64,000 nt of DNA, taken from Acidithiobacillus caldus ATCC 51756. GTDB taxonomy: Bacteria > Pseudomonadota > Gammaproteobacteria > Acidithiobacillales > Acidithiobacillaceae. Shown piece after piece: positions 15,588-32,032 of this stretch; within the stretch, counting starts at the first letter, position 1; each line of letters opens with the position of its first letter. The DNA is taken from contig NZ_CP005986.1 in assembly GCF_000175575.2 (NCBI RefSeq), positions 186,001 to 250,000 on the forward strand, in the 5' to 3' direction. The notes beneath the pieces are model-generated. The model was not told the DNA's origin and ran no database searches. It saw only the letters and a list, made by a program, of their open reading frames with translations. The position numbers and the translations under genes are program-made.

Positions 15588-16813
15588 CTACGCTAGCTGT
15601 TCCTGCGACAGGTAGCCGAATTCGATCAGCTTTCTGATCCAGCGAGGAGCATTGCGTCGCACGCTAAGCGCCTCATAGTCTGTGTCGGCATCCCGGTAGT
15701 TCGTGCCGTGCGAGAGCATGAGGTAGATGATGCGCAACATTTTGTGGGCCAGAGCGATGATGGAACGCTTGTGTCCCCGACGGACGACGAGACTCTGAAA
15801 TTTGGAGCGCAGAGCGCACTGCGTCCGACTGGCGGCGTGAGCGCATTCACAGAGAATTCGGCGAACGTAAGGATTACCCTTGCGAGTTCGCCCGGTTTTT
15901 CGCTTCCCGGCGGATTCGTTGTTCCCTGGGCACAGGCCGGTCCAGGAGGCCAGACGATCCGCGCTTCCGAAGACGCTCATGTCGTCGCCGATTTCGACCA
16001 GCAGCAAGGCCGCACCCACGACGTCGATCCCCGGCAAGGTTTGCAGGAGTTCGAGAGCCTTCTTTTGCGGCTCCAGACCTTCCAGCAGCTGGGCATCGAA
16101 GAGGGCGATGCGAGCTTCCAGATACTCGATATGCCGGAGCATCTCCTCCAGGACAAAGCGGTGACTGGCCGTCAACTCGCCCTGCAGGGCATCCAGGATC
16201 TCCTCATGACTGGCTTTGAGTCGCCGGCTGGCCAGGCGGAGTACGGATTCCGGAGAGTCGCCCTGAATCAGGGCTTGGATCATGGCCCGAGCCGATTGCC
16301 CATGGATATCGCTGACCACAACTCCCAGGCGAATCCCGCCATCCGTAAGCACCTTGTGCAGACGGTTTTTCTCCGAGGAGAGCATGCCCACCAGTTTTTG
16401 CCTTTGCCGTGCAATGAGCCGCAGTTCCCGCAGTTGTGCCGGGGGCACGAAGGAACCTCGCAACAGCCCGGCTCGGGCTAGGGTAGCAAGCCACTCAGCA
16501 TCCCCCACATCGGTCTTGCGGCCCGGGACGTGTTTGACGTGACGGGCATTCACCACCTGCGCCTGGATGCCCACCTTTTCCAGTGCCGCATAGGGACTCT
16601 TCCAGTAGATTCCCGTGCTCTCCATGACCACTGTATCGGGTCTATGGGAAGCACACCACTGCGCCAATTTCCGCCGGTCTCTCTGAAACGCACCAAACTG
16701 CCGCCGCTCGATCGTGACACTACCGTCTGGCTCCGTGAGCATGGCGCAGGCGGTAACCGGGCCTGATGAATGTCCAGGCCAATGACTCGTTGAAAGAGGG
16801 GTTGCAGTTCCAT
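15588..16813 (-). pseudogene. IS110-family transposase with N-terminal frameshift
   Basis: DEDD transposase. The natural start is the ATG at 16813 (MELQPLFQRVIGLDIHQA), which carries the first catalytic Asp. One base is missing right after that (near 16757), so the rest (VTACAMLTEPDGS, MESTGIYW, KTDVGDAEWL, the C-terminal LPGIDVVGAALLL and GLCPGNNESAGKRK...CAHAA with the catalytic Ser region) is in another frame. The downstream frame is open to 16829 but only by using unrelated N-terminal codons. As read, the protein lacks the first Asp and should be inactive unless ribosomes shift frame. Confidence 0.85.
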
Positions 16814-17225
16814 AACGGTATCTCTCCAAGTATGATCAAAAGGGAGAGATGGCAGGTGCCAGTGCCGAAGAAACCAGCCTGTGGCAAGCCTCAGGCGGCC
16901 CTTTTACTGTGCGCTCTCCAAGGAGGCAATCCGGGGTGCGAGTCGGCCTGACGGGTCACGTTAAGTTCGGGATGGAATCGCCAAAAATTTGCTCGACCTC
17001 ACCCCGCCATCTCCTCACCCCACATTCTCTTTCATCCTCCGGGGCGGCGCGAATCGCAATGTCCGTTAAGACGACGCTTGCCCTAATTGACCCGGCTAGT
17101 GTCCCCAGCGGGGTCAAAGCCGCTTACGATCAGTTCTGCAAGTAGGCGCCGTGACGGCTGAACCTCCACTCAAGCCGAGGTTCATCGGGATAGTCCTTGA
17201 GCAGCGCCTCAGCTCAAACATTAAT
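16814..17225 (-). other. IS110 upstream non-coding end and junction; no protein gene
   Basis: About 410 bp between the two IS110 copies. The first part (to roughly 16990) is the non-coding left end of IS110 copy 1, the place where IS110-group elements encode their structured bridge RNA; a small GCCTG/CAGGC stem is visible at about 16878-16897. The rest may be the displaced flank of the interrupted host gene (frame ...GVKAAYDQFCK-stop at 17145). The RNA is not demonstrated. Confidence 0.4.
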
Positions 17226-17297: not shown

Positions 17298-18008
17298 TTA
17301 CGCTGGCTGCTGCTGTGGTTGCAGGAAGCCGAATTTGATCAGTTTCTTGATCCAGCGAGAAGCATTGCGCTGCACGCTCAGCGCCTCATAGTCCGTGTCG
17401 GCATCCCGGTAGTACGTGCCGTGCAGCAGCATGAAGTAGATGATGCGCAGCATTTTGTGGGCCAGAGCGATGATGGAGCGCTTGTGTCCTCGGCGAACAA
17501 CGAGGCTCTGGAACTTGGAGCGCAGGGCGCATTGGGTACGACTGGCGGCGTGGGCGCATTCGCAGAGGATCCGGCGGACATAGGGATTGCCCTTGCGGGT
17601 TCGCCCACTTTTGCGTTTCCCGGCGGATTCATTGTTCCCGGGGCACAGGCCGGTCCAGGAAGTCAGTCGATCAGCGCTTCCGAAGACGCGCATGTCGTCC
17701 CCGATCTCGACCAGCAGCAGAGCGGCTCCCACCATATCGATACCCGGCAGGGTCTGCAGGAGTTGCAGGGCGTGCTTCTGCGGCTCTAGCCCCTCCAGCA
17801 GCTGAGCATCAAAGCGTGCGATTCGGTCCTCCAAATACTCAATATGGTTGAGCGTCTCCTCCAGGACAAAGCGGTGGCTCGCCGTCAACTCGCCTTGCAG
17901 GGCATCCAGGATCTCTTCGTGGCTGGCCTTGAGCCGTCGGCTGGCTAGTCGAAGTACCGCCTCTGGGGAGCCCCCCTGAATCAGGGCCTGGATCATGGCT
18001 CGAGCCGA
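17298..18008 (-). pseudogene. IS110-family transposase, 5' truncated second copy
   Basis: Same element as at 15588-16813, in the same orientation, with matching 3' flank (GAATGGGCACGAC at 15532 and 17242). It lacks roughly the first 160 residues, including all three N-terminal acidic catalytic residues, and begins abruptly at ARAMIQALIQ; at 18008 it is joined to IS21-like sequence. Transposase activity is lost. Confidence 0.88.
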
Positions 18009-18149
18009 ACACTTGCCAGCAGGGTGATCGTCGACGTACCGACCTTATACATAACAGAAAGAACCGCCGATCGCCCACCAAGCAAGGTGTTAAGTTGAAT
18101 TGCTGATTTGGTGTGCATCCTGTTCATTTTTCCGCGCTGACCGACAGGG
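18008..18149 (-). repeat. IS21-like terminal segment, copy 2
   Basis: Reverse-complement counterpart of 11613-11760. Read on the minus strand it begins TGTCGGTCAGCGCGG and contains AATGAACAGGATG and AACACCTTGCTTGGTGGG. It is joined to the truncated IS110 on one side and to an IS3 orfA remnant on the other. Confidence 0.65.
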
Positions 18150-18497
18150 TGATCGCCGAGCGGCACTCCCGACCATCTGCCTTCGGATATCCGGGCAGCG
18201 TTCGCGGATCCAGGAAGACAGGGTCCCAGGCCTTGGGTATCCCAGTGCTTTTCGCGTACTCGCCAGGCAACGGCCATGACCGAGATAGTAGTCAACGGCG
18301 GCCTGCTTCTGCGCCTCCGTATAAGGCGATCGCGATCGAACGTAACCCTTGGGGCAGTCCCGAGTTCACGCATACTCACGGTACCAAGCATTGAGGGCGT
18401 TTTTGCTCGGATAGCCCAGGCAGAGGATGGTGGCCGCGCGCTTCCCGCACTCCACATACCACTCCACGGCACGAATATGTTCCTCGTAGGAATACAT
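18150..18497 (-). pseudogene. IS3-family orfA remnant (IS150-like)
   Basis: Minus-strand frame reads MYSYEEHIRAVEWYVECGK, ATILCLGYPSKNALNAWYREYA, then a stop, and resumes GYVRSRSPYTEAQKQAAVDYYL and GRCLASTRKALGYPRPGTLSSWIRER. This is the double helix-turn-helix orfA of IS3-family elements. One stop and the fusion to IS21-like sequence at about 18149 make it dead. No orfB follows. Confidence 0.75.
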
Positions 18498-18556
18498 GAA
18501 CTACCTCGATGGTATCCAAGTTTTATCCGCACCCCCATCTGACCTAAATTTATGCA

Positions 18557-18590
18557 TTTTTTACGCACTTTATATATTTTTTTTATAGAC
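18557..18590 (+). promoter_or_regulatory. AT-rich motif upstream of kdp (KdpE-box-like)
   Basis: TTTTTTACGCACTTTATA followed by TATTTTTTTTATAGAC. It resembles the T-rich KdpE site of enterobacterial kdp promoters and shares TTTTACGCA-n-TTTATRTATT with the region before the porin at 23424. Likely operator/promoter for kdp; not proven. Confidence 0.5.
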
Positions 18591-18619
18591 ACTGGGTTCG
18601 CCGTTTGCAAAGCTCTTTC

Positions 18620-18655
18620 CCACGATCGGTCGTGGACCGCCCAGTTTGGGCGTCC
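18620..18655 (+). promoter_or_regulatory. Two back-to-back hairpins in the kdp leader
   Basis: Stem 1: CCACGA/TCGTGG with loop TCGG (18620-18635). Stem 2: GGACCGCCCA/TGGGCGTCC type (18634-18655), overlapping stem 1 by two bases, so they could be alternative or stacked. They lie between the AT-rich promoter region and the first ORF at 18698. Could stabilise or regulate the leader; no known riboswitch class recognised. Confidence 0.4.
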
Positions 18656-18697
18656 ATGGAGTCTGCTTTGATAGTGACAAGCACCCGGGGGGTTGTT

Positions 18698-18790
18698 ATG
18701 GAGTACGTGTATTTACTGATTATATTAGGCTTTTTTCTAGTCTCCATAGGTTTGGTCGAAGGATTGGAACGGTTGAGGAAGATAAGATGA
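18698..18790 (+). CDS. Small one-helix membrane protein upstream of kdpF
   Basis: 30 residues, MEYVYLLIILGFFLVSIGLV then EGLERLRKIR: one transmembrane helix and a basic tail. A G-rich ribosome site (GGGGGG) lies 6-11 nt upstream of the ATG. Its stop overlaps the kdpF start (ATGA). Small ORFs ending in ERLR-like tails are common just before kdpF in other bacteria, but no function is established; it may be an extra small Kdp subunit. Confidence 0.7.
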   Translation: MEYVYLLIILGFFLVSIGLVEGLERLRKIR

Positions 18791-18879
18791 GCCCGTTTAT
18801 TTGGATCGGCCTCGGCCTGGGTGTTTTTCTCTTTGGTTACCTGTTGGTGTTTCTAATCTTCCCGGAGCGTTTTCTATGA
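18787..18879 (+). CDS. kdpF: Potassium-transporting ATPase subunit KdpF
   Basis: 30 residues, MSPFIWIGLGLGVFLFGYLL then [10 protein letters not shown]: a single transmembrane helix ending in the PERF motif typical of KdpF, which stabilises the KdpABC complex. Translationally coupled on both sides: ATGA overlap with the preceding small ORF and with kdpA. Confidence 0.88.
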   Translation: MSPFIWIGLGLGVFLFGYLLVFLIFPERFL

Positions 18880-20636
18880 TGCCTAGCATCCTACTGACCT
18901 TAACCCTCTTGGTAGTAACGATAATACTCGCCATTCCCTTGGGACGATACATGTATCGCGTGTACCAAGGAGAAAACTTCTGGGCATCAAAGTTGCTCGC
19001 CCCAGTCGAAAGAGCCCTCTACCGCGTCTCTGGAATCTCTCCGGATCAGGAGATGGATTGGAAGCGCTACGCCATAACCTTGCTGGTATTTAGTTTGTTT
19101 GGCGGTTTATTCCTGTATGCCCTCCTCCTGGCACAACGATCACTGCCGCTCGATCCATTGCATTTCCGTGGAGTCCCTGCAGGATCAGCCTTTAACACAG
19201 CCGTGAGTTTTTTGACCAACACGAACTGGCAAGACTACTCAGGCGGTTCGACAATGAGTTACTTGTCCCAGATGCTCGGGCTTACCGTGCAGAATTTCCT
19301 CTCTGCGGCAGTTGGTATTACGTTTCTGCTACCGCTAATTCGTGCATTTTCTCGACACAGCACCAGAGACGTAGGAAACTTTTGGGTCGATCTAACCCGC
19401 ACGGTACTTTACGTTCTGCTGCCCTTGGCAAGCATCCTAGCCATTGCGCTGATGGAGCAGGGAGTCGTCCAAACTTTGGTGGCCGATGTATCCGTTCATC
19501 TTGTTGCTCCATTTTTATCTCACGGCAAAGAGATCGTCTCACAGACCCTGCATGTCGGACCGGTAGCTTCACAGGAGGCCATCATGATGTTGGGCAACAA
19601 TGGTGGTGGTTTCTTCAATATGAACGATGCCCATCCGTTTGAGAACCCGACGGGGTTGACCAATCTCCTCGAAACAGGCGCAATGATTTTGATTCCGATC
19701 GCGCTGGTTTTTCTTTTTGGGCATATGGTTCAATCGAAACGTAACGCGTGGATCATACTGGTCGCCATGCTCGTAATCTTTGTGCCGCTGACCTTTATCA
19801 GTCAGCATTTCGAACTGGCTGGCAACCCTCTGTTAACCCAGATGGGAGTAAATCAGAGTAATACCGTAAACTTAGCTGGTGGTGGGAATCTGGAAGGAGT
19901 GGAAGATCGGATTGGTGCTGCTGCCTCGGCGCTCTTTGCAACGCTCGCGACTGCCACGTCCACAGGTGCAGCCAACTGCGCGTATGATTCTCTGATGCCC
20001 CTTAGCGGTGGGATCAATCTCTTCCTGATGCAAATGGGAGAGGTCGTATTTGGTGGGGTGGGATCTGGTCTTGCAAGCTTTCTGACCTTTATGATTTTCG
20101 CGGTATTCATCGGAGGTCTTATGGTCGGTCGCACCCCGGAGTTTCTTGGCAAAAAGATTGAATCCTATGAAATAAAAATGGCATCCCTGTCGATTCTGAT
20201 CATGCCGCTTTTGGTGCTTATTGGTACCGCCATCGCAGTTTCTACGCACGCGGGCCGGGCGGGAGTTTTTAATCCCGGACCTCATGGTTTCAGTGAGATT
20301 CTGTATGCGGTTACCAGCCCAGCAAACAATAATGGTAGCGCCTTTGGAGGCTTGAGTAATGATACGCGCTTCTACAATATATTGACCGGAATGTGCATGC
20401 TCTTTGGTCGGTATTGGGTATACCTACCACTTCTGGCCATGGTTGGCTCATTGGTGGAGAAAAAGCGTGTCCCAGCGAGCGTTGGAACCTTGGCGACAGA
20501 TACGCCTATTTTCATGGGATTGACAGTCGGGGTGATTCTCCTGGTGGGCGCATTGAATTTCTTTCCGGCACTGGCGCTGGGCCCAATTGCCGAACAATTA
20601 ACTCCTGTTACCTCCGTATTGACACATCGAGGATAA
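18876..20636 (+). CDS. kdpA: Potassium-transporting ATPase subunit A
   Basis: 586 residues from the ATG that overlaps the kdpF stop (an ATG three bases on is equally possible). KdpA is the K+-selective channel-like subunit of the Kdp pump. The four pore-loop signatures are intact: [11 protein letters not shown] (about residue 113), [15 protein letters not shown] (about 240), [13 protein letters not shown] (about 368) and NNNGSAFGG (about 483). Ten membrane helices expected. Followed 4 bp later by kdpB. Confidence 0.96.
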
Positions 20637-20640
20637 CGTT

Positions 20641-22701
20641 ATGTCGGATATGAATGTATCTTCTCCAATGATTTGGGGTACAATTGTCAAAGATTCTGCT
20701 CGCGACAGTTTTACTCTGCTCTCTCTCCGGCATCAGCTCCGCAACCCGGTTATGGCCGTGGTATATTTGTCGTCCTGGCTGTTGCTGGTCATGCTCGTGT
20801 ACGACCTGTTTAGGGGATCAAGCGAAACCGTTTTTGTCGGATTTATCGACTTGTGGCTTTGGCTGACGCTTCTCTTTGCGAATTTCGCGGAAGCCCTGGC
20901 AGAGCGCCAAGGGCAGGCTCAAGCGGCTAGTTTGCGGCAGAGTCGGCAGGAGATGGCCGCAAAGAAGTTGTCTCGGGCCGAACGTTCATCGGCCTACACG
21001 ATTGTGCCGGGTGCAAGCCTTCGTGTGGGAGACTTTGTACTGGTCGAGGCAGGAGATCTGGTGCCAACTGACGGCGACGCGGTTTTGGGGGTGGCTGCGG
21101 TCGATGAAAGCGCTATCACCGGAGAGAGCGCCCCTGTCATTCGGGAGAGTGGAGGTGATCGTAGCGCGGTTACCGGAGGTACGCGCGTGATTTCCGACTG
21201 GTTGGTGATTCGTGTTACCCAGGAAGCGGGTAACACCTTCCTCGACCGGATGATCGGCATGGTAGAGAGCGCCACGCGCCGGAAGACCCCAAACGAAATT
21301 GCCCTCAGTGTGTTGCTCGTTGTGCTTACCCTGGTCTTTCTGGTGGTCACCCTGACGCTCTACGCATTTTCCTGGTACAGCGTTCACTACGCCAGCCACG
21401 CGGGCCATGTGATCAGCCTCCCAATTCTCATAGCTCTCCTGGTCTGCCTGATTCCAACAACCATCGGTGCGCTGTTGCCGGCCATTGGTATCGCTGGCAT
21501 CGTCCGGCTCCTGAAGGCCAAGGTGGTCGCCATGTCGGGACGCGCCATCGAGGCGGCCGGTGACGCGGACATTCTCCTTTTGGACAAAACGGGAACGATC
21601 ACCCTGGGCAACCGGCAGGCAGATATATTTTATCCGGTCGGTCGCGTAACCAGTGACGAGCTTGCCCTGGCGGCACGTCGGGCCTCATTGGCCGACAATA
21701 CCCCGGAAGGCAAGAGCATTGTTGCGCTCGCGGAGAAAAACTTCCCCGATCGTAAGGAAGCCCTCCCCGAAGGCGCCACCTTCATTGCGTTTACGGCAGA
21801 GAGCCGCATGAGTGGTGTCAACTGGGACGGCGTGGCCCTGCGTAAGGGGGCACCGGACGCGATCAAAGCCTATGTCCTTGAGTCGGGTGGCGAGTGGCCC
21901 AAGGAACTGGACACGCTGGTCGATCAGGTTGCCGGTAGCGGTTCGACACCGCTCGTCGTTTGCGCCGACGCCCAAGTATTGGGAGTCGTCGAACTACGCG
22001 ACATCATCAAATCCGGTATCCGGGAACGCTTTGCCGAACTGCGAGAAATGGGTATTCGCACAGTTATGGTTACCGGAGACAATCCGTTGACTGCCGCCGC
22101 CATAGCCGCGGAAGCCGGTGTGGACGACTATCTTGCTGAAGCCAAACCGGAAACGAAGCTTGCGCGGATTCGCCAATATCAGCAAGAGGGTTATATGGTC
22201 GCGATGACCGGCGACGGGACCAACGATGCTCCTGCTCTTGCACAAGCGGACGTTGGCCTGTGCATGGCCAGTGGTACCCAGGCTGCTCGGGAGGCATCCA
22301 ATATGGTGGATCTGGACTCCGATCCTACGAAGTTGCTGGACATCGTGCGCATCGGAAAGCAATTGCTGATGACCCGAGGAGCACTCACGACCTTTAGCAT
22401 CGCCAACGACGTTGCAAAGTACTTCGCAATCATCCCCGCTGCTTTTGTCGCCACGTACCCGCAACTCTCGGCGCTCAACATTATGGACCTGAATTCGCCA
22501 AGCGACGCCATTATGGCGGCGGTGATTTTCAATGCGATCATTATTCCGTTCCTCATCCCCTTAGCACTGCGCGGAATTAAGTTCCGAGCCGAATCCGCAG
22601 AGCAAATCCTTCGCCGAAATGTCTGGATCTATGGGCTAGGCGGCATCGTTGCCCCATTTGTCGGGATCAAGCTCATCGATATGCTGTTGGCCGTACTCTA
22701 G
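20641..22701 (+). CDS. kdpB: Potassium-transporting ATPase ATP-binding subunit B
   Basis: 686-residue P-type ATPase (type IA) that powers K+ uptake by KdpA. Motifs in order: ITGESAPV (actuator TGES, about residue 157), [12 protein letters not shown] (phosphorylated Asp, about 315), [14 protein letters not shown] (about 475) and [18 protein letters not shown] (about 522). Seven transmembrane helices, with the usual C-terminal [18 protein letters not shown] segment. No sign of decay. Sits between kdpA and kdpC in one transcript. Confidence 0.97.
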
Positions 22702-22711
22702 GAGAAGACAG

Positions 22712-23314
22712 ATGCTTAAAGAGATCAGAACGGCGCTCGTGTTATTTTTGTTACTGGCGGTATTGACTGGGCTGGTCTACCCCTTGGTCATGACCGGCAT
22801 TGGTCAACTGGCGTTTCCGTATCAAGCCAACGGCTCTTTGATACGCGAGAATGGCAAAATCGTGGGGTCGGCGCTGATCGGCCAGTACTTTCGCGAACCC
22901 CAGTACTTCTGGAGTCGACCCTCAGCAACATCACCCATGCCGTATAATGGGGCGGGTTCGAGCGCCTCCAACCTTGGCCCGAACAACCCTGTGCTGTTGC
23001 AGCACGTCAAGGCTCGGGTCGAGGCACTCAAGCGGGCCGACCCCGCAGAAAAAGGCCCGGTTCCGGTCGATCTGGTGACGTCTTCGGCGAGCGGACTCGA
23101 CCCCGACATCAGTATTGCCGCGGCAAACTACCAGATTTTGCGCATCGCCCACAGCGGAGGGATCAGCCCAGCCAGGTTGAAGGCACTCGTGCAGCGCTAT
23201 ACCACCTATCCGCTTTTGGGTTTTATCGGTGAACCGGTGGTTAATGCCGTACGCTTGAATCTTGCTTTGCACGCCATATATCAGCATATGAGCCGAGGCA
23301 GAGAGGGTAAGTAA
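22712..23314 (+). CDS. kdpC: Potassium-transporting ATPase subunit C
   Basis: 200 residues, start ATG at 22712 with GGAGAAGA upstream. One N-terminal helix (ALVLFLLLAVLTGLVYPLV) and a periplasmic domain with QLAFPYQANGSLI, IGQYFREPQYFWSRPSAT, GSSASNLGPNNP and the C-terminal LGFIGEPVVNAVRLNLAL, all typical of KdpC. It is the last gene of the operon and is followed by a strong terminator at 23390. No kdpD is present in this window. Confidence 0.96.
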   Translation: MLKEIRTALVLFLLLAVLTGLVYPLVMTGIGQLAFPYQANGSLIRENGKIVGSALIGQYFREPQYFWSRPSATSPMPYNGAGSSASNLGPNNPVLLQHVKARVEALKRADPAEKGPVPVDLVTSSASGLDPDISIAAANYQILRIAHSGGISPARLKALVQRYTTYPLLGFIGEPVVNAVRLNLALHAIYQHMSRGREGK

Positions 23315-23389
23315 TAGCTTGCCCAGGAAACGGGTGCGATGTCCTCGGCGGGCAAACAAGCACGTAAAACGGGAATATGTCGTTAATAA

Positions 23390-23411
23390 AAAGGCGCCGA
23401 GAGGCGCCTTT
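23390..23411 (+). terminator. Rho-independent terminator after kdpC
   Basis: Perfect 9-bp stem AAAGGCGCC/GGCGCCTTT with loop GAGA, followed by CTTTGTGTT and preceded by A-rich sequence, so it can work in both directions. Confidence 0.88.
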
Positions 23412-23423
23412 CTTTGTGTTCAA

Positions 23424-23465
23424 ATTTTACGCAAATTTTATGTATTATTTATTTTATTTTTACGA
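23424..23465 (+). promoter_or_regulatory. AT-rich motif upstream of porin, shared with kdp
   Basis: ATTTTACGCAAATTTTATG followed by TATTATTTATTTTATTTTTACG. The start matches the kdp upstream motif at 18557 (TTTTACGCA, then TTTATRTATT), and TTTTTACG recurs at its end. Likely a shared regulator site and AT-rich promoter. Confidence 0.5.
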
Positions 23466-23559
23466 TAAACCGTCTATCTTTTAGGGAGTACCTAAATGGT
23501 GGCGAACCTCACGCTACCAACGTGGGTATCCGTAGAGTTCTTCCAGAAGGAGTGGCAAC

Positions 23560-24729
23560 GTGACGATCCGTAACTCCCTGCGCAGGCAAATCCAGTACGC
23601 ATGTGTCGCACTCTGCGTGCCCGTATCTGCCAGCGCTCTGACCCTTCCGAGCCCCTATATGGTCTCTGCAGGCCCCTTGGGCCAGATCGGCGTACAGGGG
23701 GTAGTCAGTGGTCTTGGGTTTTATCAGGATAATCCCCAAGGGACTGTTGCCGGAACCCTGGCCAGCAAGCATGTCGGTGCCGATATCAGTAACGGTCTTG
23801 TCATCGTGCAGAAAAGCAGTGGCCTCGTCCAATTCACCCTCGAGGCCGGGGCCTACAGCTTCCCGACCCTGGCATCCTGGTTCACCTCGGCGAGCCAAAC
23901 CGTCAACGACTTTGGGGCCCTGCCAGTTGCCTACGTGACGCTTGCCCCGAGCAAGGCGTTCTCTGTGGAGATCGGTAAACTGCCCACCCTCATCGGTGCC
24001 GAGGACGGGTTTACCTTTCAGAACCTCAACATCGAACGGGGACTGTTGTGGGATGTGGAACCCATCGTCAGTCGCGGTGTGCAGGCCAATTACAGCATGG
24101 GTCCGCTCAGCGCATCTTTGTCCTGGAACGATGGCTATTACTCCAACCGCTACAACACGGTCAGCGGCGACCTGACCTGGACCATCGATGGCAGCAACAG
24201 TCTGGAGTTCTACGCGAGCGGGAACCTCGGCAAAGCCGGTGGCAGCACGACCAATACCTACGGTGCGGGGAATATCGCCGACGGGGCCGACGACAGCACG
24301 ATCTACGGACTGATTTACACCTACAACCACGGTCCGCTGACGATAGAGCCCTACCTGCAGTACATGCGTACGCCGGCCCAGTTGGGGATTGGCCTTGACC
24401 ACGGCTTTTCCAATTACGGAGGCGCCGTGCTCGCGAGCTACAGCTTTACTCCGACGTTCAGTCTGACTGGCCGGGTGGAGTACCTCGGGGTGTCGGGCCA
24501 TCCAGGCTTGGGACAGGAGTCCTATGCCAGCGGCATTACCGACCTGCCCGAGGATTCCCACGCTTGGTCGGTGACCCTGACGCCCACCTATCAGGCCGGG
24601 GATTTCTTCCTGCGCGGGGAATTGTCCTATGTCACCGCGTCGTGTCCGACGGGCCTTGGTTTCTCAGGGGCTACGGGCCAGGGAACTACCCAGTTGCGGG
24701 GACTTATCGAGACGGGTTTTTTGTTTTGA
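23560..24729 (+). CDS. OmpL-like outer-membrane porin (beta-barrel porin-2 type)
   Basis: 389 residues from GTG at 23560 with AAGGAG upstream. Signal peptide through VSASA-LTL. Strand-rich mature protein with the porin-2 features VEIGKLPTLIGAEDGFTFQN, RGLLWDVEPIVSRGVQANY, SWNDGYYSNRYNTVSGDLTW and ASYSFTPTFSLTGRVEYLG, ending TGFLF with the C-terminal Phe. Such porins are often found next to kdp, and here it shares an upstream motif with kdp, so it may supply K+ or small solutes to the periplasm. The pore substrate is not known. Confidence 0.82.
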   Translation: MTIRNSLRRQIQYACVALCVPVSASALTLPSPYMVSAGPLGQIGVQGVVSGLGFYQDNPQGTVAGTLASKHVGADISNGLVIVQKSSGLVQFTLEAGAYSFPTLASWFTSASQTVNDFGALPVAYVTLAPSKAFSVEIGKLPTLIGAEDGFTFQNLNIERGLLWDVEPIVSRGVQANYSMGPLSASLSWNDGYYSNRYNTVSGDLTWTIDGSNSLEFYASGNLGKAGGSTTNTYGAGNIADGADDSTIYGLIYTYNHGPLTIEPYLQYMRTPAQLGIGLDHGFSNYGGAVLASYSFTPTFSLTGRVEYLGVSGHPGLGQESYASGITDLPEDSHAWSVTLTPTYQAGDFFLRGELSYVTASCPTGLGFSGATGQGTTQLRGLIETGFLF

Positions 24730-24815
24730 ACGACAGTTGATGGTGGAGGCTTCGTTGGGAGTTTGCGAAGCCGTATGGCGCTCGCCCACAGTGGGTATGC
24801 CGAATGAGGGTAGCT

Positions 24816-25025
24816 ATGGAACCGCTTAAGATGCAGATAAAGAAGGCCGAATGGCAAGGATATCGCTGGGCGCTGGATCACCCACAGGCCAATCCCGATG
24901 CCATAGAAGCCGCCTGTTACACCCTATATTCCGAAAACCGTGCTGGTGTTCTGCTCTATGCCTTCGAGCGCGGCTGTGCTTTGGCGCAAGCCGGTGTCCA
25001 GCCGGAAGCCCCCGAGCCTGTGTAG
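24816..25025 (+). CDS. Small hypothetical protein with RWALDHPQA motif
   Basis: 69 residues, start ATG at 24816 with GAGGG 6 nt upstream. Predicted soluble helical protein: KKAEWQGYRWALDHPQANP, then IEAACYTLY, LLYAFERGCALAQAG. The GxRWAxxHPQA segment recurs in the membrane protein at 26011-26313, so the two are probably paralogues. It precedes the glutamate-kinase-like gene by 45 bp. Function unknown. Confidence 0.6.
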   Translation: MEPLKMQIKKAEWQGYRWALDHPQANPDAIEAACYTLYSENRAGVLLYAFERGCALAQAGVQPEAPEPV

Positions 25026-25070
25026 AGATTATCCGACGAGTATACGTGAACCGTCTCAGAGGAGTCCGTC

Positions 25071-25973
25071 ATGTTGAGAAGTGCAAAGGTTGAACTACGG
25101 CAAAATCCGTCCACGAGGCACGTCACGTGTCTGGGTCATCGCTGGGTCATCAAAGTGGGAAGCAGCGTGCTCACTCGGGATGACGGCCAACCGGATCGTG
25201 TGGCTATTCGCGGCCTGGTCTTTCAGATAGCGGCGCTGCGCGAGCAGGGTGTGGAGATAGTGCTGGTGAGCTCGGGCTCCGTCAGCGTCGGCCAAGGCCA
25301 CTTGCGCGAGCGTGCCGGCGATCCTGGCACCGATGCGGTGGTACGGCGAGTCGCGGCAAGTTTGGGGCAGGCAGCGCTGATGCGGGTCTTCCAGGAAAGC
25401 TTCGAGGCCTGCGAAACGTTTTGTGGACAACTGCTGCTGACGAGCGCGGATCTTTCCGGTCGGCACGCCCAGCGCCGTCTGCGCCGTTCCCTCGGCACGC
25501 TCCTGACCATGGGTGCTGTGCCGATCGTCAACGAGAACGATGCTACGACACATGCCGGTAACGGCATTGGCAACAACGATCTGCTCGCTGCCCACGTCGC
25601 CCGAGCCTGGCGCGCGGACTTATTGGTTTTACTCACCGACCAGGGGGGCCTGTACACCGCTGATCCACGCCGAGACGCCCTGGCGCGTTTGGTAGAGGTC
25701 TGCCATGGCAATGATCCCAGGATACTGGCGATGGCTGGCGGCGACACGGGAGTGCACGGAACGGGCGGTATGGCCACCAAGATTCAGGCGGCTATCCTCG
25801 CCGGTGGCCGTGGTATTCCCACGCGCATCGCCGCTGGACGACAGAGTCACGTATTGTTACGCATTCGCCGGGGAGAAAGAGTGGGCACCTGGGTTCTGCC
25901 GCCCGCGACCTGGAGCCTGGGTCAGCGCTTGGGGCTGCCGGCCCTCCCGCAACCGGCTTACCAATGGGCGTGA
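25071..25973 (+). CDS. Glutamate 5-kinase-like protein lacking the PUA domain
   Basis: 300 residues of the amino-acid kinase fold. ProB landmarks: WVIKVGSSVLT (phosphate loop), IVLVSSGSVSVGQGHL (normally SSGAVAAG), VRRVAASLGQ, VPIVNENDATTHAGNGIGNND, LLVLLTDQGGLYTADPR and GTGGMATKIQAAILAGGRGI. Full-length ProB has about 370 residues with a C-terminal PUA domain; here the protein ends after the kinase fold. Glutamate 5-phosphate is the first step of proline synthesis, a compatible solute, which fits the Kdp neighbourhood. The altered SSG loop leaves open another acid substrate. Confidence 0.8.
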   Translation: MLRSAKVELRQNPSTRHVTCLGHRWVIKVGSSVLTRDDGQPDRVAIRGLVFQIAALREQGVEIVLVSSGSVSVGQGHLRERAGDPGTDAVVRRVAASLGQAALMRVFQESFEACETFCGQLLLTSADLSGRHAQRRLRRSLGTLLTMGAVPIVNENDATTHAGNGIGNNDLLAAHVARAWRADLLVLLTDQGGLYTADPRRDALARLVEVCHGNDPRILAMAGGDTGVHGTGGMATKIQAAILAGGRGIPTRIAAGRQSHVLLRIRRGERVGTWVLPPATWSLGQRLGLPALPQPAYQWA

Positions 25974-26010
25974 ACCGGAAACGCCGCCGCTTGCCCCAAG
26001 GAAAGTTATC

Positions 26011-26313
26011 GTGCTCTCGCCGAACCCATGGCCATCCCTGACGAGGGGTTTGGTTTGGCTGCTGCCGGCGGTGTGGTTTTGCCTCGTGTGGCTTGCACAG
26101 AGCAGACTTCGTTTACGCAGGGCATTCCGAGATGGCCAGCGCTGGGCGCGCCAGCACCCGCAGGCGGACTTGCATCCGGCAATTCTTACTGCCCAGGCGC
26201 GCTGGCCACTGCGCGATGCAGGCCAAGATCCGTGTTTTTACGCCTTTCTCAAGGGCTATCACGCAGCGCGTCGGCAGGATAGGGACGCGCTGCAAACGGG
26301 GTTGAAGCCGTGA
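26011..26313 (+). CDS. Small membrane protein with RWARQHPQA motif
   Basis: 100 residues from a GTG at 26011 with AAGGA about 8 nt upstream. One N-terminal membrane helix (LVWLLPAVWFCLVWLAQS), then a basic soluble part FRDGQRWARQHPQADLHPAI and CFYAFLKGYHAARRQDRDAL. The GxRWAxxHPQA core matches the 24816-25025 protein. It follows the kinase-like gene by 37 bp and probably forms one operon with it. Function unknown. Confidence 0.55.
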   Translation: MLSPNPWPSLTRGLVWLLPAVWFCLVWLAQSRLRLRRAFRDGQRWARQHPQADLHPAILTAQARWPLRDAGQDPCFYAFLKGYHAARRQDRDALQTGLKP

Positions 26314-26646
26314 TCCATGTCGTCCGTAAATCCGTTTTTCTCACCTTGGGTCGCTTTGGGAGGAGTTGCTTATGCTATACGGTGTGATTCTGAGCTTTGC
26401 TTTACTCCTTTTGGGCCTTTATTGGCTCTACGCTCGGCACCTCGCCGCTGCCGATTCTGCGCGTAGGGAGCGGCAATCCTTGCGGGCCAGACCGGGTATT
26501 TTCCCCGGCATCGAAAAGCTCCTGCCGCGTGTCGCGCCCCACGATCTTTTTCCGTGGGGCAAAGCTTTTTTTGAGCCCAGCCGCAGGGCTAGGGAATCGC
26601 GCCAGTGGGAGCTTCTGGTCGACCTCGAGCACCGCGCTTTTTGGTA

Positions 26647-27623
26647 CATGCCTGTTAACCTTTCTCAGCAACAAGCCGGACCGGGATATGTTCCATACAG
26701 GCATTGAGCAACCTCAGGGGCAGTTCTGGCTCCCAGAAACGGCGATTGAAGCGATAGACAAACTCGTTCAGATATTCCTGCAGATATTTGCCGGATACCC
26801 CATGGAATGTGCCCAAAAGAAAGGCCTTGAGGTTACCAATGGCGATGTGTACCCACGGCAACCACTCGTCCACCTGATGCGGTTTGGTCACGCGCCCCTC
26901 ATGCTCTTGGCTCTCTCCGAGAACTCGCAGCGCTATTAAGCCGTCGGTGCGGGTAGGTTGCTTGGGGCGCAAGCGTCGCCGCGCGAATTCGCGAATCCGG
27001 TCGGCAGAGACCGAAGGCGTCGTCTCGATGGCAATAAAGCCCGCCTTCTTGCCCCGGTTTTCCACGGCAACCAAGATCGGTGTTTTGCCTTCGGCCCCTC
27101 GACCGCTCTTCCCCCCAGACCGGCGTCCACCGACAAAGGCATCGTCCAACTCTACCAGCCCTTCCAAGCGATACAGACTGTCGCGATCGCCCATGGCGCG
27201 GCGCATGCGGCGCAACATCCGGTGAGCCGTGATCCAGGAGACCCCAATCTGCTTCGACAGCCGCAGGGCGGACAATCCGCCCTTGTCGCTCGCCATCAAA
27301 TAGATGGCCAGGAACCATTGCACCAGGGGCACATTGGACGAATGAAAAATTGTGCCGGCCGTCACCGAGGTCTGATGGCGACAGTGCCCGCACTGAAAGA
27401 GTTTTCGTCCGGCGATCCAGTATCCGCGGTCATGGCCGCATTTCGGACATCGAAACCCCTCGGGCCAGCGCTTTTGTTTCAGCGCCTCCAAGCAGGCCTC
27501 TTCCGTGCCAAACCGCGCTTGCCACTGCAAGAGGTTCGTCGCTTCAGCTTTCATCTCAGACCTCCTTTCTCTATGCCTCACAGAGAGTTAGAGCTTGATT
27601 GCTGAGAATGATTCAGAGGCATG
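26647..27623 (-). mobile_element. Complete IS1595-family insertion sequence (977 bp)
   Basis: Ends are inverted: CATGCCTGTTAACCTTTC at 26647 and CATGCCTCTGAATCATTC read inward from 27623, both leading into TCAGCAA. An exact 8-bp target duplication TTTTGGTA lies at 26639-26646 and 27624-27631, the size typical of this family. It carries one intact transposase. Confidence 0.93.
26655..27554 (-). CDS. IS1595-family transposase
   Basis: 299 residues from ATG at 27554 (AAGGAGG upstream; an ATG-less extension to 27581 is less likely). N-terminal zinc ribbon CPKCGHDRGYW...CGHC, then HQTSVTAGTIFHSS, a DDE core with LVELDDAFVGGRRSGGKSG, RTDGLIALR, and the NLKAFLLGTFHGVS segment before EYLNEFVYRFNRRF. 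All family motifs are present and uninterrupted, so it is probably active. Confidence 0.92.
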   Translation of the reverse strand: MKAEATNLLQWQARFGTEEACLEALKQKRWPEGFRCPKCGHDRGYWIAGRKLFQCGHCRHQTSVTAGTIFHSSNVPLVQWFLAIYLMASDKGGLSALRLSKQIGVSWITAHRMLRRMRRAMGDRDSLYRLEGLVELDDAFVGGRRSGGKSGRGAEGKTPILVAVENRGKKAGFIAIETTPSVSADRIREFARRRLRPKQPTRTDGLIALRVLGESQEHEGRVTKPHQVDEWLPWVHIAIGNLKAFLLGTFHGVSGKYLQEYLNEFVYRFNRRFWEPELPLRLLNACMEHIPVRLVAEKG

Positions 27624-27938
27624 TTTTGGTATTGCCGCGAAACCTCCACCCTGGGATTTTGGCGCATCGATCCCGATGGCGCGGCTTTCTGGCAGGAATG
27701 GCGTCTTGCGCCCCAGGAAGTAGACCACCTTCGTCGGCAGTACGTGCAAGAGGGAGCGCAAGCATCGATGTCCTCCGATGTGCAACCGCGTGCCGTTGGT
27801 TTTTAGGGAAGATCCCTGCTGTTGTCTGGACGGAAGGCCTTTTACGGATCGAAACGGTATTCCCTGGGGGAAGCCCATCGATCCACGAGAGGCCTTCCGC
27901 CTCCTGTATCCCGCTCAGCCGCAAAGGAGTGTGAGGTT

Positions 27939-28233
27939 ATGAAGCAGTTACCGATCATGGCGCAAGTCGCCCAAGGGCGCCTTTCGGGGTTTGCACTGGG
28001 ACCTTTGGTTCATTCCGCTGAGCAATGCCGAACCTCCGGAACGCAAGGTGCGGCGGATCGGTGCGGTGTATGTGATACGCTTACCCGACCTGGTCTTGCC
28101 GGCGCTCCAGCATCTCCTTGAGACGCGTATGCGTGAAAGTTATCTGCTCTGCCTTTGCGTTAGCCAGATCTTTCGCGGCTGCCACCCGCGCGACCACGCC
28201 TTCATCCAATCGGACTGGGCAATCTGGTCTTGA
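27939..28233 (+). CDS. Small ORF before the second kdpA, possibly frameshifted
   Basis: An ATG at 27939 with AAAGGAG upstream opens a 60-residue frame to 28121. A second frame, from about 27943 to the TGA at 28233, reads more like protein (LHWDLWFIPLSNAEPPERKV, RRIGAVYVIRLPDLVLPALQ, ...SDWAIWS) and ends 10 bp before the kdpA-like start. The simplest view is one gene with a one-base shift around 27985. I do not recognise the family. Confidence 0.35.
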
Positions 28234-28243
28234 GGAGAGCCCC

Positions 28244-30002
28244 ATGCATCCCTTACTTGCCAGCGTCCTCCAAACCCTTTTCGTCCTGGGGCTGACCATC
28301 CTGTTGGCCTATCCCCTCGGAATATATCTCGACTCGGTCTACAACGGCCGCGTGTTTTGGGCGCGGCGGGTATTGGGTCCGATAGAGGAGATGATCTACC
28401 ACCTGGCAGGCAGCGCACCAGGACATGGATTGGAAACGTTACGCTCTCAGCTTTTTGGGCTTCAACGGGCTCGGCGCACCGAGTCTCTACGTCCTGTTGC
28501 GTTGGCAAGGGGCTTTGCCTTTCAATCCGGAACACTTTGCCGGCATGTCGCCCATTATGGCCTTTAACACCGCCGCAAGTTTCGTGACCACCACCAATCT
28601 GCAGGATTATGGTGGCGAGAGCACGTTGAGTTATCTATCCAAAGCCGCAGGCCTTGCGCAGCAGAATTTCCTCGCCGCCGCCAGTGGCGTCGTTACGCTG
28701 CTGGCAGTGGCCCGCGCCTTCATGCGCAGCGAAGGACGGGGGCTCGGCAATTTCTGGGTAGACACCACCCGAACGGTGCTGTACCTCTTCTTGCCGTTGG
28801 CCGCCATTTTTACGGTGTTTTATATCCAGCAAGGAGCCATTGAGAATTGGGTGGCCTATGTCCACGCGGATTTGATACAGCCCTTTTGGCATGACGGTCA
28901 CTGGATAAGACATCAGGTTCTGGCCATGGGGCCGGCTGCCTCACAGGAAGCGATCACCATACTGGCGGGGGATGGAGGAGCTGTTTTCAACGCAGGTGTG
29001 GCACATCCCTTCGTGAATCCGACGCCTTTGTCCAACCTCGGGCAGATGGTGTCCTTTTTGCTCATCCCCACCGCCCTGATTTTCTGGTTCGGGCGTGCCT
29101 TGCGGCGCCCCCGGGTAGCTTGGGCGATTCTCGCCTGTACCACGCTCTTATGGCTCCCTCTGGCTGTGACGAGCGAAGCGGCGGACCTCGTTTCCAATCC
29201 CCAATTCCCACCCAGCGTTTCTCGCGCAAGCGGCCCAGACGCGGGCGGAGGTGGTAATCTGGAGGGGGTTGATCTGCGCTTCGGATCCGGCGCATGTGCG
29301 CTTTTCGGCAGTCTCGCTGCCACCACGGGAGCCGGTATGTCTGGCTGTGCCTACGACTCCATGATGCCGCTATCCAGTGGTATCAACATGGTATTTATGC
29401 AGCTGGGGGAGCTCTTGTTTGGGGGAGCTCGTGTGGGCCTGGAGAGCTTCCTGGCAACTATGATCTTTGCGGTTTTTTTAGCAGGATTGATGACCGGGCG
29501 CAGTCCAGTCTTCTTGGCCAAAAAAATTGAGGCATTCGAGATCAAAATGGTGGCCTTGTCCCTATTGGTGATGCCGGTGCTTGTGTTGCTCACCACGGCT
29601 TTCGCCGTGAGTGTGCCTGACGGACGCGCTGCCGTGTTCAATCCTGGTCCCCAGGGGTTCAGCGAGGTCCTCTACGAATTCACGAGCGCGGTAAACAATA
29701 ATGGAAGCGATATGGGCGGTCTGAATGTCAACACCACCTTCTACAACGCACTCTCGGCCATGGCAATGCTGTTCGGAAGATACTTTGGAATACTGCCGCT
29801 TCTGGCCATGGCTGGGAGTCTTATCCAAAAGAAGCGGTTGCCGCAAGGCGCGGGAATATTGCGAGAGAGCTCGGTACTCATGATTCTCTTCGTCACTTTC
29901 GTTATCGTCGTACTGGGAGCGATTACCTTCCTGCCGGCCTTTGCCCTCGGTCCGCTGGCAGCACAATGGGCCATCCTGCCCCCCCCACAACTCCAGTGGT
30001 GA
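28244..30002 (+). pseudogene. Second, diverged kdpA with frameshift
   Basis: Starts well (GAGGAGAG, ATG at 28244, MHPLLASVLQTLFVLGLTI) but loses frame at about 28420-28426, just before MDWKRYALSFLGFNG; the remaining 525 codons are open to 30002. It is a full-length KdpA homologue in both frames. Pore loops differ from the intact copy: loop 1 TTTNLQDYGGE, loop 2 AGDGGAVFNAGVAHP instead of [15 protein letters not shown], loop 3 SGCAYDSMMPLSSG, loop 4 NNNGSDMGG. There is no kdpB or kdpC beside it. Either a pseudogene or a KdpA-like protein needing frameshifting. Confidence 0.85.
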
Positions 30003-30046
30003 GCGTGGTGACTGCTTAGACGAGGCGCGCGGGAGGCTAAAACGGT

Positions 30047-30793
30047 ATGGAGAACAAATTGGCAATACTCGTGGTTGAGGACGACTTGCGTATCGGTAGA
30101 CTCCTCGAGAATAATCTGCGCCTCGGGGATACGTACCTTGTGGATTGGGAGACATCGGCGGCCGCAGCACAGCGGGCCGTGCGCCAGCGCCGCGCGCACG
30201 AACGCACGCCCTATTCGGTCGTCTTCTTGGACTTGGGGCTTCCGGATCGGGACGGCTTGGATCTGATTCCGTGGTTTAGAACGCAGTCGGCCGATCAGGT
30301 GATTATTGTGGTCTCGGCTCGTGGAAACGAAGCGGATAAGATTCAGGCCTTTCAGCTAGGTGCTGACGACTATCTAACCAAACCCTTTCATTATGGGGAA
30401 CTGATGGCTCGTCTCCAAGCGCACCTCAGAAGGGTTCATGTCACGACGAACGAGGGCGCTATAGTGCGGGGAGAATGGCGATTGGACGACAACAGACGCG
30501 TGCTGGTGATCGGGGAACGGGAAATTCTGCTCACCAATAAGGAGTACCAACTCATGCGCATTCTCTTACGCAACTGCGGAACCATCGTTCCGAGTAAGCG
30601 TATCCTGAACGCCATTTGGGGCCACACGCATGAGGAACACACGCATTACGTACGTATATACGTGCAAAGGCTGCGTGAGAAAATCGAAAGCGATGCAAGC
30701 CTTCCCCAATTCCTGCTCACTGAGCTTGGAATTGGGTATCGCCTCGTTGTTCCCGACTTTACCGAGAAACAATCAAAAACTAACAGAGATTAA
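30047..30793 (+). CDS. OmpR/KdpE-family response regulator, orphan
   Basis: 248 residues. Receiver domain with acidic pair D12/D13 (VVEDD), phosphoacceptor D62 (FLDLGLPD), S90 (VVSARG) and K112 (TKPF), followed by a winged-helix DNA-binding domain (NKEYQLMRILLRNCGTIVPS, HYVRIYVQRLREKIE, LTELGIGYRL). An insertion with Arg/His lies before the phospho-site. No histidine kinase is adjacent. Its place just after kdpA-like sequence suggests it replaces or derives from KdpE and may read the AT-rich motif shared by kdp and the porin. Confidence 0.82.
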   Translation: MENKLAILVVEDDLRIGRLLENNLRLGDTYLVDWETSAAAAQRAVRQRRAHERTPYSVVFLDLGLPDRDGLDLIPWFRTQSADQVIIVVSARGNEADKIQAFQLGADDYLTKPFHYGELMARLQAHLRRVHVTTNEGAIVRGEWRLDDNRRVLVIGEREILLTNKEYQLMRILLRNCGTIVPSKRILNAIWGHTHEEHTHYVRIYVQRLREKIESDASLPQFLLTELGIGYRLVVPDFTEKQSKTNRD

Positions 30794-30975
30794 GTAACGA
30801 CAATAAAGAGTTATTTTTTGAAATCAGCCCACAGGTATTTGTGGTATTCGTTTATCAATCGGCGTGCAAAAGGGGATAATTCTGGGCACGCTTTATCGTG
30901 ACGATCTCCTATGTGCGAGAAAACACGGAACTATTACAAGCCCATATAGAGCAGATGTACACCTCCGGTAATGCC

Positions 30976-31032
30976 TTGACAGACTCCTGCGCGCGGGTAT
31001 CCACTCTGCGTTTAAATACTGTTAGGGGGTAT
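30976..31032 (+). promoter_or_regulatory. Promoter and putative RcnR/CsoR-type operator
   Basis: TTGACA (30976-30981), 16-bp spacer, TATCCA (30998-31003). Downstream, ATAC-TGTTAGGGG-GTAT (31016-31032) is a G-tract flanked by a short inverted repeat, the layout of RcnR/CsoR operators. It overlaps the ribosome site of the repressor gene, so binding could give autoregulation. Confidence 0.5.
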
Positions 31033-31036
31033 AGGT

Positions 31037-31306
31037 ATGTCGGCACACGATCGACGGGCCATCCTGCAGCGCATGGCCCGTCTGGAAGGCCAGGTCCGCG
31101 GTATCCGGCAAATGCTGGAGGAAGACCGCGATTGCCCAGAAGTCCTGAATCAGATGGCCGCAGCGCGCGCCGCTTTGGATAAGGTCGCCCGGATGGTTTT
31201 TGAAGATCACCTGGATCACTGCTTGGTAGATGTTATCCAGGACGGGGATGCAGACGAACCGATAGCGAGTATCAAAGCGGCCTTCGCCTGTTATTTCTTG
31301 CCCTGA
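31037..31306 (+). CDS. CsoR/RcnR/FrmR-family metal-responsive repressor
   Basis: 89-residue all-helical repressor. Typical start MSAHDRRAILQRMARLEGQV-RGIRQMLEEDRDCPEVLNQ with the conserved first-helix Cys at 35 and, in helix 2, a DHLDHCLVD segment giving His60 and Cys61-type ligands. These proteins leave a G-tract operator when metal binds. The next gene is a His-rich exporter of the RcnA/NicO kind, so a Ni/Co sensor is the best guess; copper (CsoR) and formaldehyde (FrmR) are alternatives. Confidence 0.85.
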   Translation: MSAHDRRAILQRMARLEGQVRGIRQMLEEDRDCPEVLNQMAAARAALDKVARMVFEDHLDHCLVDVIQDGDADEPIASIKAAFACYFLP

Positions 31307-31321
31307 TCACGGGAGCTCTTC

Positions 31322-32032
<711 letters not shown>

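Follow-up and report, generated by a model that had tools for sequence, protein, structure and literature searches.

KdpA forms one half of the KdpFABC potassium pump and KdpB the other half, and the response regulator KdpE binds a box of the TTTATA type. In published structural and mutational work, residue N239 of KdpA contributes to K+ binding at the outer site (PMC6255902), and E. coli filter mutants stay coupled, G232D pumping Rb+ and NH4+ and Q116R having a lowered affinity (PMC12629597). Available sections of three further papers describe an IS110 element adjoining kdpABC in strain ATCC 51756 (PMC10214660), a kdpABCE set on an integrative element with Kdp genes common to the megaplasmid and the chromosome (PMC3826726), and a named plasmid kdpABCE cluster, with potassium uptake thought to build an inside-positive potential that keeps protons out (PMC8886135). 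A second kdpA is not mentioned in those sections of the three papers. A stand-alone or filter-variant natural KdpA was likewise not found in the literature searched, as far as its accessible text goes.

We analysed a window of 64,000 bases from Acidithiobacillus caldus ATCC 51756 (G000:C1:186001-250000). Contig C1 has 2,777,717 bases and contig C2 171,972; we take the species to be the one now called Fervidacidithiobacillus caldus and C2 to be its megaplasmid. IS110 transposases lie at 15588-16829 and 17298-17996 of the window, matching the published position beside kdpABC. The + strand then carries, in this order, kdpF, kdpA1, kdpB, kdpC, porin-2, Z, a short glutamate 5-kinase gene, X, Y, a second kdpA (kdpA2) and a gene for a KdpE-like regulator (kdpE'). 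The features are as follows; the sister genome is that of a metagenome-assembled genome (MAG) described below.

18569..18587, + strand: KdpE-box-like direct repeat TTTATA..TTTATA, the sole exact match within the window (0.01 expected by chance)
18787..18879, + strand: kdpF, a small open reading frame of 30 aa, its end overlapping the start of kdpA1
18876..20636, + strand: kdpA1, with an ordinary filter (open reading frame, KdpA match and loop comparison)
20641..22701, + strand: kdpB (open reading frame, over the family cut-off)
22712..23314, + strand: kdpC, start codon inferred (open reading frame; relatives found with kdpC)
23560..24729, + strand: porin-2 (BBP2) gene (Pfam PF07642)
24795..25022, + strand: Z, a small conserved module protein, 69-72% identical to the sister genome (69% over 75 aa)
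25071..25973, + strand: short proB-like glutamate 5-kinase (TIGR01027, 226 bits against a cut-off of 186)
25705..26313, + strand: X, a small protein with an uncertain start, 41% identical to the sister genome and without a Pfam match
26366..26646, + strand: Y, first part, split by an insertion sequence (sister-genome match; Y is open, 151 aa, in the C2 copy)
26647..27623, - strand: insertion sequence of the IS1595/ISXO2 type, ends approximate (transposase 26655-27581, Pfam PF12762)
27624..27806, + strand: Y, second part (sister-genome match)
28244..28417, + strand: kdpA2, first piece, 68% identical to the intact orthologue across 53 aa
28425..30002, + strand: kdpA2, second piece with all four pore loops, 525 open codons
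30047..30793, + strand: KdpE-like response regulator, 56% identical to the genome's KdpE, without an adjoining KdpD

The reading frame of kdpA2 begins at ATG 28244, is disrupted within 28410-28424 and resumes at ATG 28425, from where it runs open to 30002. With the intact orthologue as tblastn query, residues 6-58 matched 28259-28417 and residues 58-579 matched 28410-29975, which locates at 28410-28424 the frameshift that the first-pass annotation had placed near 28423, and the 525 codons that it had described as open are indeed so. The second piece scored 477.9 bits against the NCBIfam kdpA model TIGR00680 (cut-off 387.7) and 546.1 bits against Pfam KdpA (PF03814), and the intact orthologue scored 556 bits against TIGR00680. 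The extra kdpA of full-length type described earlier is real, and no kdpB or kdpC adjoins it in the window; a kdpF-like open reading frame of at least 18 aa was not seen directly 5' of it. The genome has five kdpA genes, not two as earlier noted: A1 occurs in the window and again on C2, A3 lies at C1:323576, and A2 is present twice, broken each time. The three kdpB genes over the family cut-off adjoin A1, A1 and A3.

Contig C2 carries the same gene set at 18091-27192 (99.93% identity), and its copy is identical to the window from 27624 to 29980, frameshift included. An uninterrupted reading frame is therefore lacking in both copies of kdpA2 here and is present in the sister MAG. Because the frameshift is identical on C2, it is not a lone base-call slip in one place; we considered a sequencing slip an unlikely cause of the break, with the proviso that one assembly may have given both replicons one sequence. 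Within the plasmid collection all 463 records were less than 60% identical to the query, though near records may be absent from that collection; the other genome samples had one genome per species.

The first-pass annotation had left the break as either recent or bypassed. A bypass of the frameshift, or translation of the 525-aa piece from the inner ATG at 28425 as a pore without its first helix, would be compatible with the 525 open codons containing all four pore loops and with the Met found at this ATG in 7/7 aligned rows. However, direct reading of the sequence showed no run of three equal bases in 28390-28433, so that no slippery or phase-variable tract is evident; the inner ATG has no well-placed Shine-Dalgarno sequence (AGGA stands one base before it), and the changes seen only in the window copy include G377R and N231D. 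We regard such an escape as highly improbable; a late break stands, and bypass found no support. It is very probable that kdpA2 of this genome is a pseudogene of a formerly constrained extra KdpA.

The intact orthologue was found in G001, which is the same contig as the MAG Acidithiobacillus sp. KMB_Bin03. It has 579 aa, is unbroken and is 74% identical to the window KdpA2, and the gene order (kdpABC-porin-Z-kinase-X-Y-kdpA2) is that of the window. The kdpABC genes of G001 are orthologous to the A3 set and not to A1 (A 91%, B 96%, KdpD 98%), so that the stretch from porin to kdpA2 accompanies a different kdpABC set in each genome. KdpA2 is the best conserved protein of this module (74%, compared with 69-72% for Z, 70% for the kinase, about 61% for Y, 58% for the porin and 41% for X). 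The module may have moved between lineages, in which case the stronger divergence of its proteins would be as expected. X had matches only in the window and the sister genome among the loci searched, and a porin-2 gene also lies 3' of the kdp genes in several relatives.

We estimated selection by a Nei-Gojobori count with our own script. The kdpA2 pair gave a dN/dS of 0.074 (dN 0.186; dS 2.51, near saturation); the ratios for the kdpA3 pair, the kinase and the porin were 0.057, 0.17 and 0.24, respectively. The relaxed selection, with a dN/dS near 1, that had been named earlier as counting against the proposal was thus not what we found, and these values suggest purifying selection on KdpA2 for most of the time since the two copies parted. 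Tree distances for the same pair of species were 0.31+0.22 for kdpA2 against 0.083+0.04 for kdpA3, and the other module genes also differed strongly. Only two KdpA2 are known, from two species, and one of them is broken. Against two kdpA, a single kdpB of the sister genome scores above the cut-off, and KdpA2 must therefore either share that KdpB or work without one.

We compared both KdpA2 with 102 ordinary KdpA, a set unevenly spread over taxa, using the residue numbering of E. coli KdpA; three partial KdpA of the family (G040, G041t and G020) were left out of the tree and of the column analyses. Pore loop 2 reads AGDGGAVF in the window KdpA2 against GNNGGGFF in the window's intact KdpA, and GGNGGAFF in the intact KdpA2. 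The earlier reading of GDGGAVF in place of NNGGGF is thus correct as to the letters but finds no support as the functional loop, since G229A, N231D and F235V are restricted to the broken copy. One residue occupied every lettered row of the ordinary KdpA at 64 columns. The intact KdpA2 differs at seven of these (N112T, W115L, G234A, N239G, T340A, F527M and L541V), and the window copy at 11, namely the same seven positions (with I at 541) together with G229A, N231D, G377R and G406A. The changes common to both at uniform positions include N112T, W115L, G234A, N239G and T340A, and both differ at all four of N112, W115, G234 and N239, each of which is uniform in 102/102 ordinary rows. S343 is also changed, and E403 is V, while the filter glycines G232, G345 and G468 are kept, as are Q116, R400 and two charged residues, E370 and R493, that are reported to lie within the membrane. 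The possibility raised earlier, that the loop changes are unique to this strain, holds for a minority of positions, 7/11 of the changes at uniform positions being changes in the intact orthologue also.

Of the 128 columns with at least 95% conservation in the 102 ordinary KdpA, 20 differ in both KdpA2, and at 18 of these 20 the two proteins carry the same new residue; among ordinary rows the median was one change and the highest number 13 (G039). At 13 filter positions that we picked ourselves, 101/102 ordinary KdpA were uniform. Finally, 15 of 127 columns invariant in 22 other KdpA were changed in both KdpA2, and since 12 of these 15 carry the same residue, most changes were fixed before the split and kept. 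Enrichment of the changes in the pore loops, whose borders were our choice, was weak (Fisher p 0.05 and 0.11).

That KdpA2 is a redundant relic in both species, with selection on it fading and its filter changes devoid of meaning, is unlikely. Its long stem in the tree (0.81), its faster change than kdpA3 and its broken state here would all fit; so would ten changes at conserved columns found only in the window copy against three only in the sister copy, although this difference is not significant (p 0.26) and decay of the window copy was not concluded from it. The low dN/dS, the 579 open codons of the sister gene, its place as the best conserved protein of the module, and the 12 identical residues among 15 jointly changed invariant columns argue against a relic.

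Both its sequence and its predicted fold mark the intact orthologue as a full-length KdpA. In its structure model residues 3-578 align with solved KdpA over 554 residues (Z 47-50, rmsd 2.2); the mean pLDDT is 81, with parts of the pore loops below 50, and the next folds are KtrB, TrkH and HKT at Z 15-24. KdpA2 resembles the KdpA of the E. coli KdpFABC structures (5mrw, 6hra and 7nnp) in score, in its full-length fold and at G232, G345, G468, E370, R400 and R493. It is unlike that KdpA at N112, W115, G234, N239, T340, S343, E403 and F386, and in being an extra copy without kdpB or kdpC, frameshifted in this genome. The E. coli mutants Q116R and G232D (PMC12629597) are each changed at a single residue of the same filter loops, but these are laboratory mutants, whereas in the natural protein Q116 and G232 are both retained and their neighbours are changed. 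At the contact with KdpB, F386 is V or T in KdpA2 and F or Y in 102/102 others; L422 and R400 are retained. The changes at F386, L541 and E403 argue against a simple exchange with the same KdpB, and would also be compatible with a free channel or a brake.

A free channel would conduct cations passively and independently of KdpB, in the manner of the Trk/Ktr/HKT superfamily, and X and Y might assist it. The absence of an own kdpB, the altered F386, L541 and E403, the matching of X only beside kdpA2, and the next folds of the model are consistent with this. However, R400, E370 and R493 are kept, and kdpA2 has remained linked to kdpABC in both genomes; X and the pieces of Y, when scanned, gave no Pfam domain and hence no TrkA- or KtrA-like partner, and Y weakly matches L121, a locus without kdpA2. 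We consider a free channel decidedly unlikely. A brake would act at the protein level, KdpA2 being a poorly transporting decoy that displaces KdpA in the complex and reduces the activity of the pump. Filter positions that are uniform elsewhere are lost while the fold, R400, E370 and R493 are kept, and the protein is encoded beside kdpABC without its own kdpB, all of which would fit a decoy, but retention of G232, G345, G468 and Q116 is more than a dead pore needs, and such a decoy seems to us quite unlikely.

We favour instead a reading in which the broken kdpA2 here is a lost gene of a kdp set present on two replicons, with the same frameshift in both, and in which its ancestor encoded an alternative A subunit with an altered filter that shared KdpB. 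This account as a whole stands at about even chances, and the ancestral role taken by itself, that of a changed-filter subunit working with a shared KdpB, is a tentative proposal somewhat below even chances. The intact KdpA2 would be made under potassium shortage with KdpF, KdpB and KdpC from the same set, and would replace the ordinary KdpA in part of the complexes. The resulting pump might have a lower potassium affinity or a wider ion choice, for example for NH4+ or Rb+ as in E. coli G232D, and KdpB would drive it as before. Of the altered ion choice proposed in the first-pass annotation, the filter-loop changes hold up, several being common to the intact orthologue; the altered choice itself is one part of the role proposed here. 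KdpA2 seems to represent a rare variation on the filter of a familiar pump, one that has been lost in A. caldus. Since the window copy is broken, its own interest is limited, and the interest lies in the intact relatives.

The kdpE' gene lies 44 bases 3' of kdpA2. Its product resembles KdpE (NF007820, its best model match) in having a receiver and a Trans_reg_C domain (winged helix, OmpR kind) and in its identity to the genome's KdpE; it is unlike KdpE in scoring 174.4 bits against an equivalog cut-off of 325, a score that divergence of the lineage could lower, and in standing apart from KdpD. Matches at E 1e-60 or better were found in 13/29 genomes of the family, our own included, and the best match elsewhere in the family was only 57%, so that no orthologue of kdpE' was seen beside another kdpA2. 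The genome has one KdpD match, adjoining the other KdpE, and this single KdpD might serve both KdpE-type regulators. The earlier proposal that KdpA2 acts as a sensor with the regulator found no backing in the sister genome, where this regulator does not adjoin kdpA2 and KdpD and KdpE lie at the opposite end of the locus. We infer that kdpE' is a second KdpE of a mobile kdp set and not the partner of a KdpA2 sensor; more probably it serves the whole kdp set.

A second kind of extra kdpA was found in the same family. In G018 the extra kdpA, together with a kdpF-like gene, stands in tandem before an ordinary kdpFABC, and G041 has the same kdpA pair, its contig ending inside the second kdpA; box-like repeats precede each of the two kdpA in both genomes. 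At the 64 columns this extra KdpA is changed at S108A, F109A, N112T, G229C, G233E, N239S and M397L, and it keeps E370, R400, R493, F386 and L541. Like KdpA2, it is a second KdpA in which N112 and N239 are lost. It is unlike KdpA2 in lying on a separate branch, in its tandem position with an ordinary kdpA and its own KdpE-like box, and in having G233E and G229C with F386 and L541 kept. Its changes in G018 were enriched in the loops (Fisher p 0.01), and its 12 changes at conserved columns do not go beyond the most divergent ordinary row (G039, 13); in the aligned sequences it is the filter positions, and not the number of changes, that set it apart. In the tree, the KdpA2 stem (0.81) and the stem of the G018/G041 pair (0.38) each had support of 100/100, and the pair fell inside a 16-row clade (99/99) that excludes KdpA2; placement of KdpA2 among the KdpA of the family was weakly supported (81/50). 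Both kinds are changed at positions 112, 140 and 239. This overlap is no larger than expected by chance (p 0.28), and we kept convergence as a lead only.

KdpA was present in 20/29 genomes of the family, and an extra KdpA without adjoining kdpB in 4/20 (G000, G001, G018 and G041, the last judged by its likeness to G018), with two origins. It is conceivable, if somewhat unlikely, that an exchangeable KdpA whose filter mouth had been remodelled, with loss of N112 and N239 in each case, arose on two occasions in the Acidithiobacillaceae next to ordinary kdp genes, giving isoforms that share one KdpB. If true, a P-type pump would be tuned by swapping its channel subunit, and natural KdpFABC isoforms would differ in ion preference. 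Natural KdpA variants with buried charges kept and the filter mouth changed would offer a direct test of the residues for affinity and choice, and of whether one KdpB serves two channel subunits.

In a sample of the class, 31/274 genomes had KdpA, and besides our own, two had more than one match: in G235 both kdpA genes have ordinary loops and a kdpB of their own (a contig end truncates one kdpC), and G202 has a single kdpA in two pieces, with kdpB and kdpC. No further extra KdpA lacking an adjoining kdpB was thus present among the genomes with more than one match in the 274. In a phylum sample 136/398 genomes had KdpA, but the scoring of three candidates per genome missed our own kdpA2, and this sample therefore says little about extra copies. 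From genomes of named species, 80 of 145 loci were kept by a scan that depended on finding either of two short peptides resembling KdpA2 and can overlook orthologues; among the 80, two kdpA in the retrieved stretch occurred only in the sister MAG, and in five other loci no kdpB follows because the contig ends. Viral contigs gave no match.

Several features of the surrounding DNA were also observed. The box-like repeat was matched in 41/156 loci, a count that includes overlapping loci, and the matches often advance by 11 bp ahead of kdp genes. In several Acidithiobacillaceae kdpABC and a porin gene have a short glutamate 5-kinase gene nearby, perhaps for proline as an osmolyte, and the repeat also precedes the kinase/porin genes of four relatives (L043 12332, L044 11887, L073 14703 and L121 14941). 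Its presence before kdp and kinase/porin genes alike suggests one potassium-controlled regulon. In L043 (G022), the matches to both kdpB and kdpD fall into two parts, as though these genes were split. Comparison of window 26082-27630 with L041 14600-15710 placed the IS1595-type element inside Y only in the chromosomal copy; in the C2 copy Y is whole, yet a fragment of the element precedes it, and the X-Y stretch there holds this piece and a repeat of about 565 bases. The replicon copies are near-identical through the kdp genes, and in window 29981-31900 differences rise just past the regulator gene: 13/15 mismatches and the 24-base gap of stretch 27624-31950 fall beyond 30793, as if copying between the replicons had ended there. 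A protein with a His-Pro repeat tract (31322-32032) is encoded next to a metal-sensitive-repressor gene (31037-31306), and here the C2 copy is longer by 24 bases.
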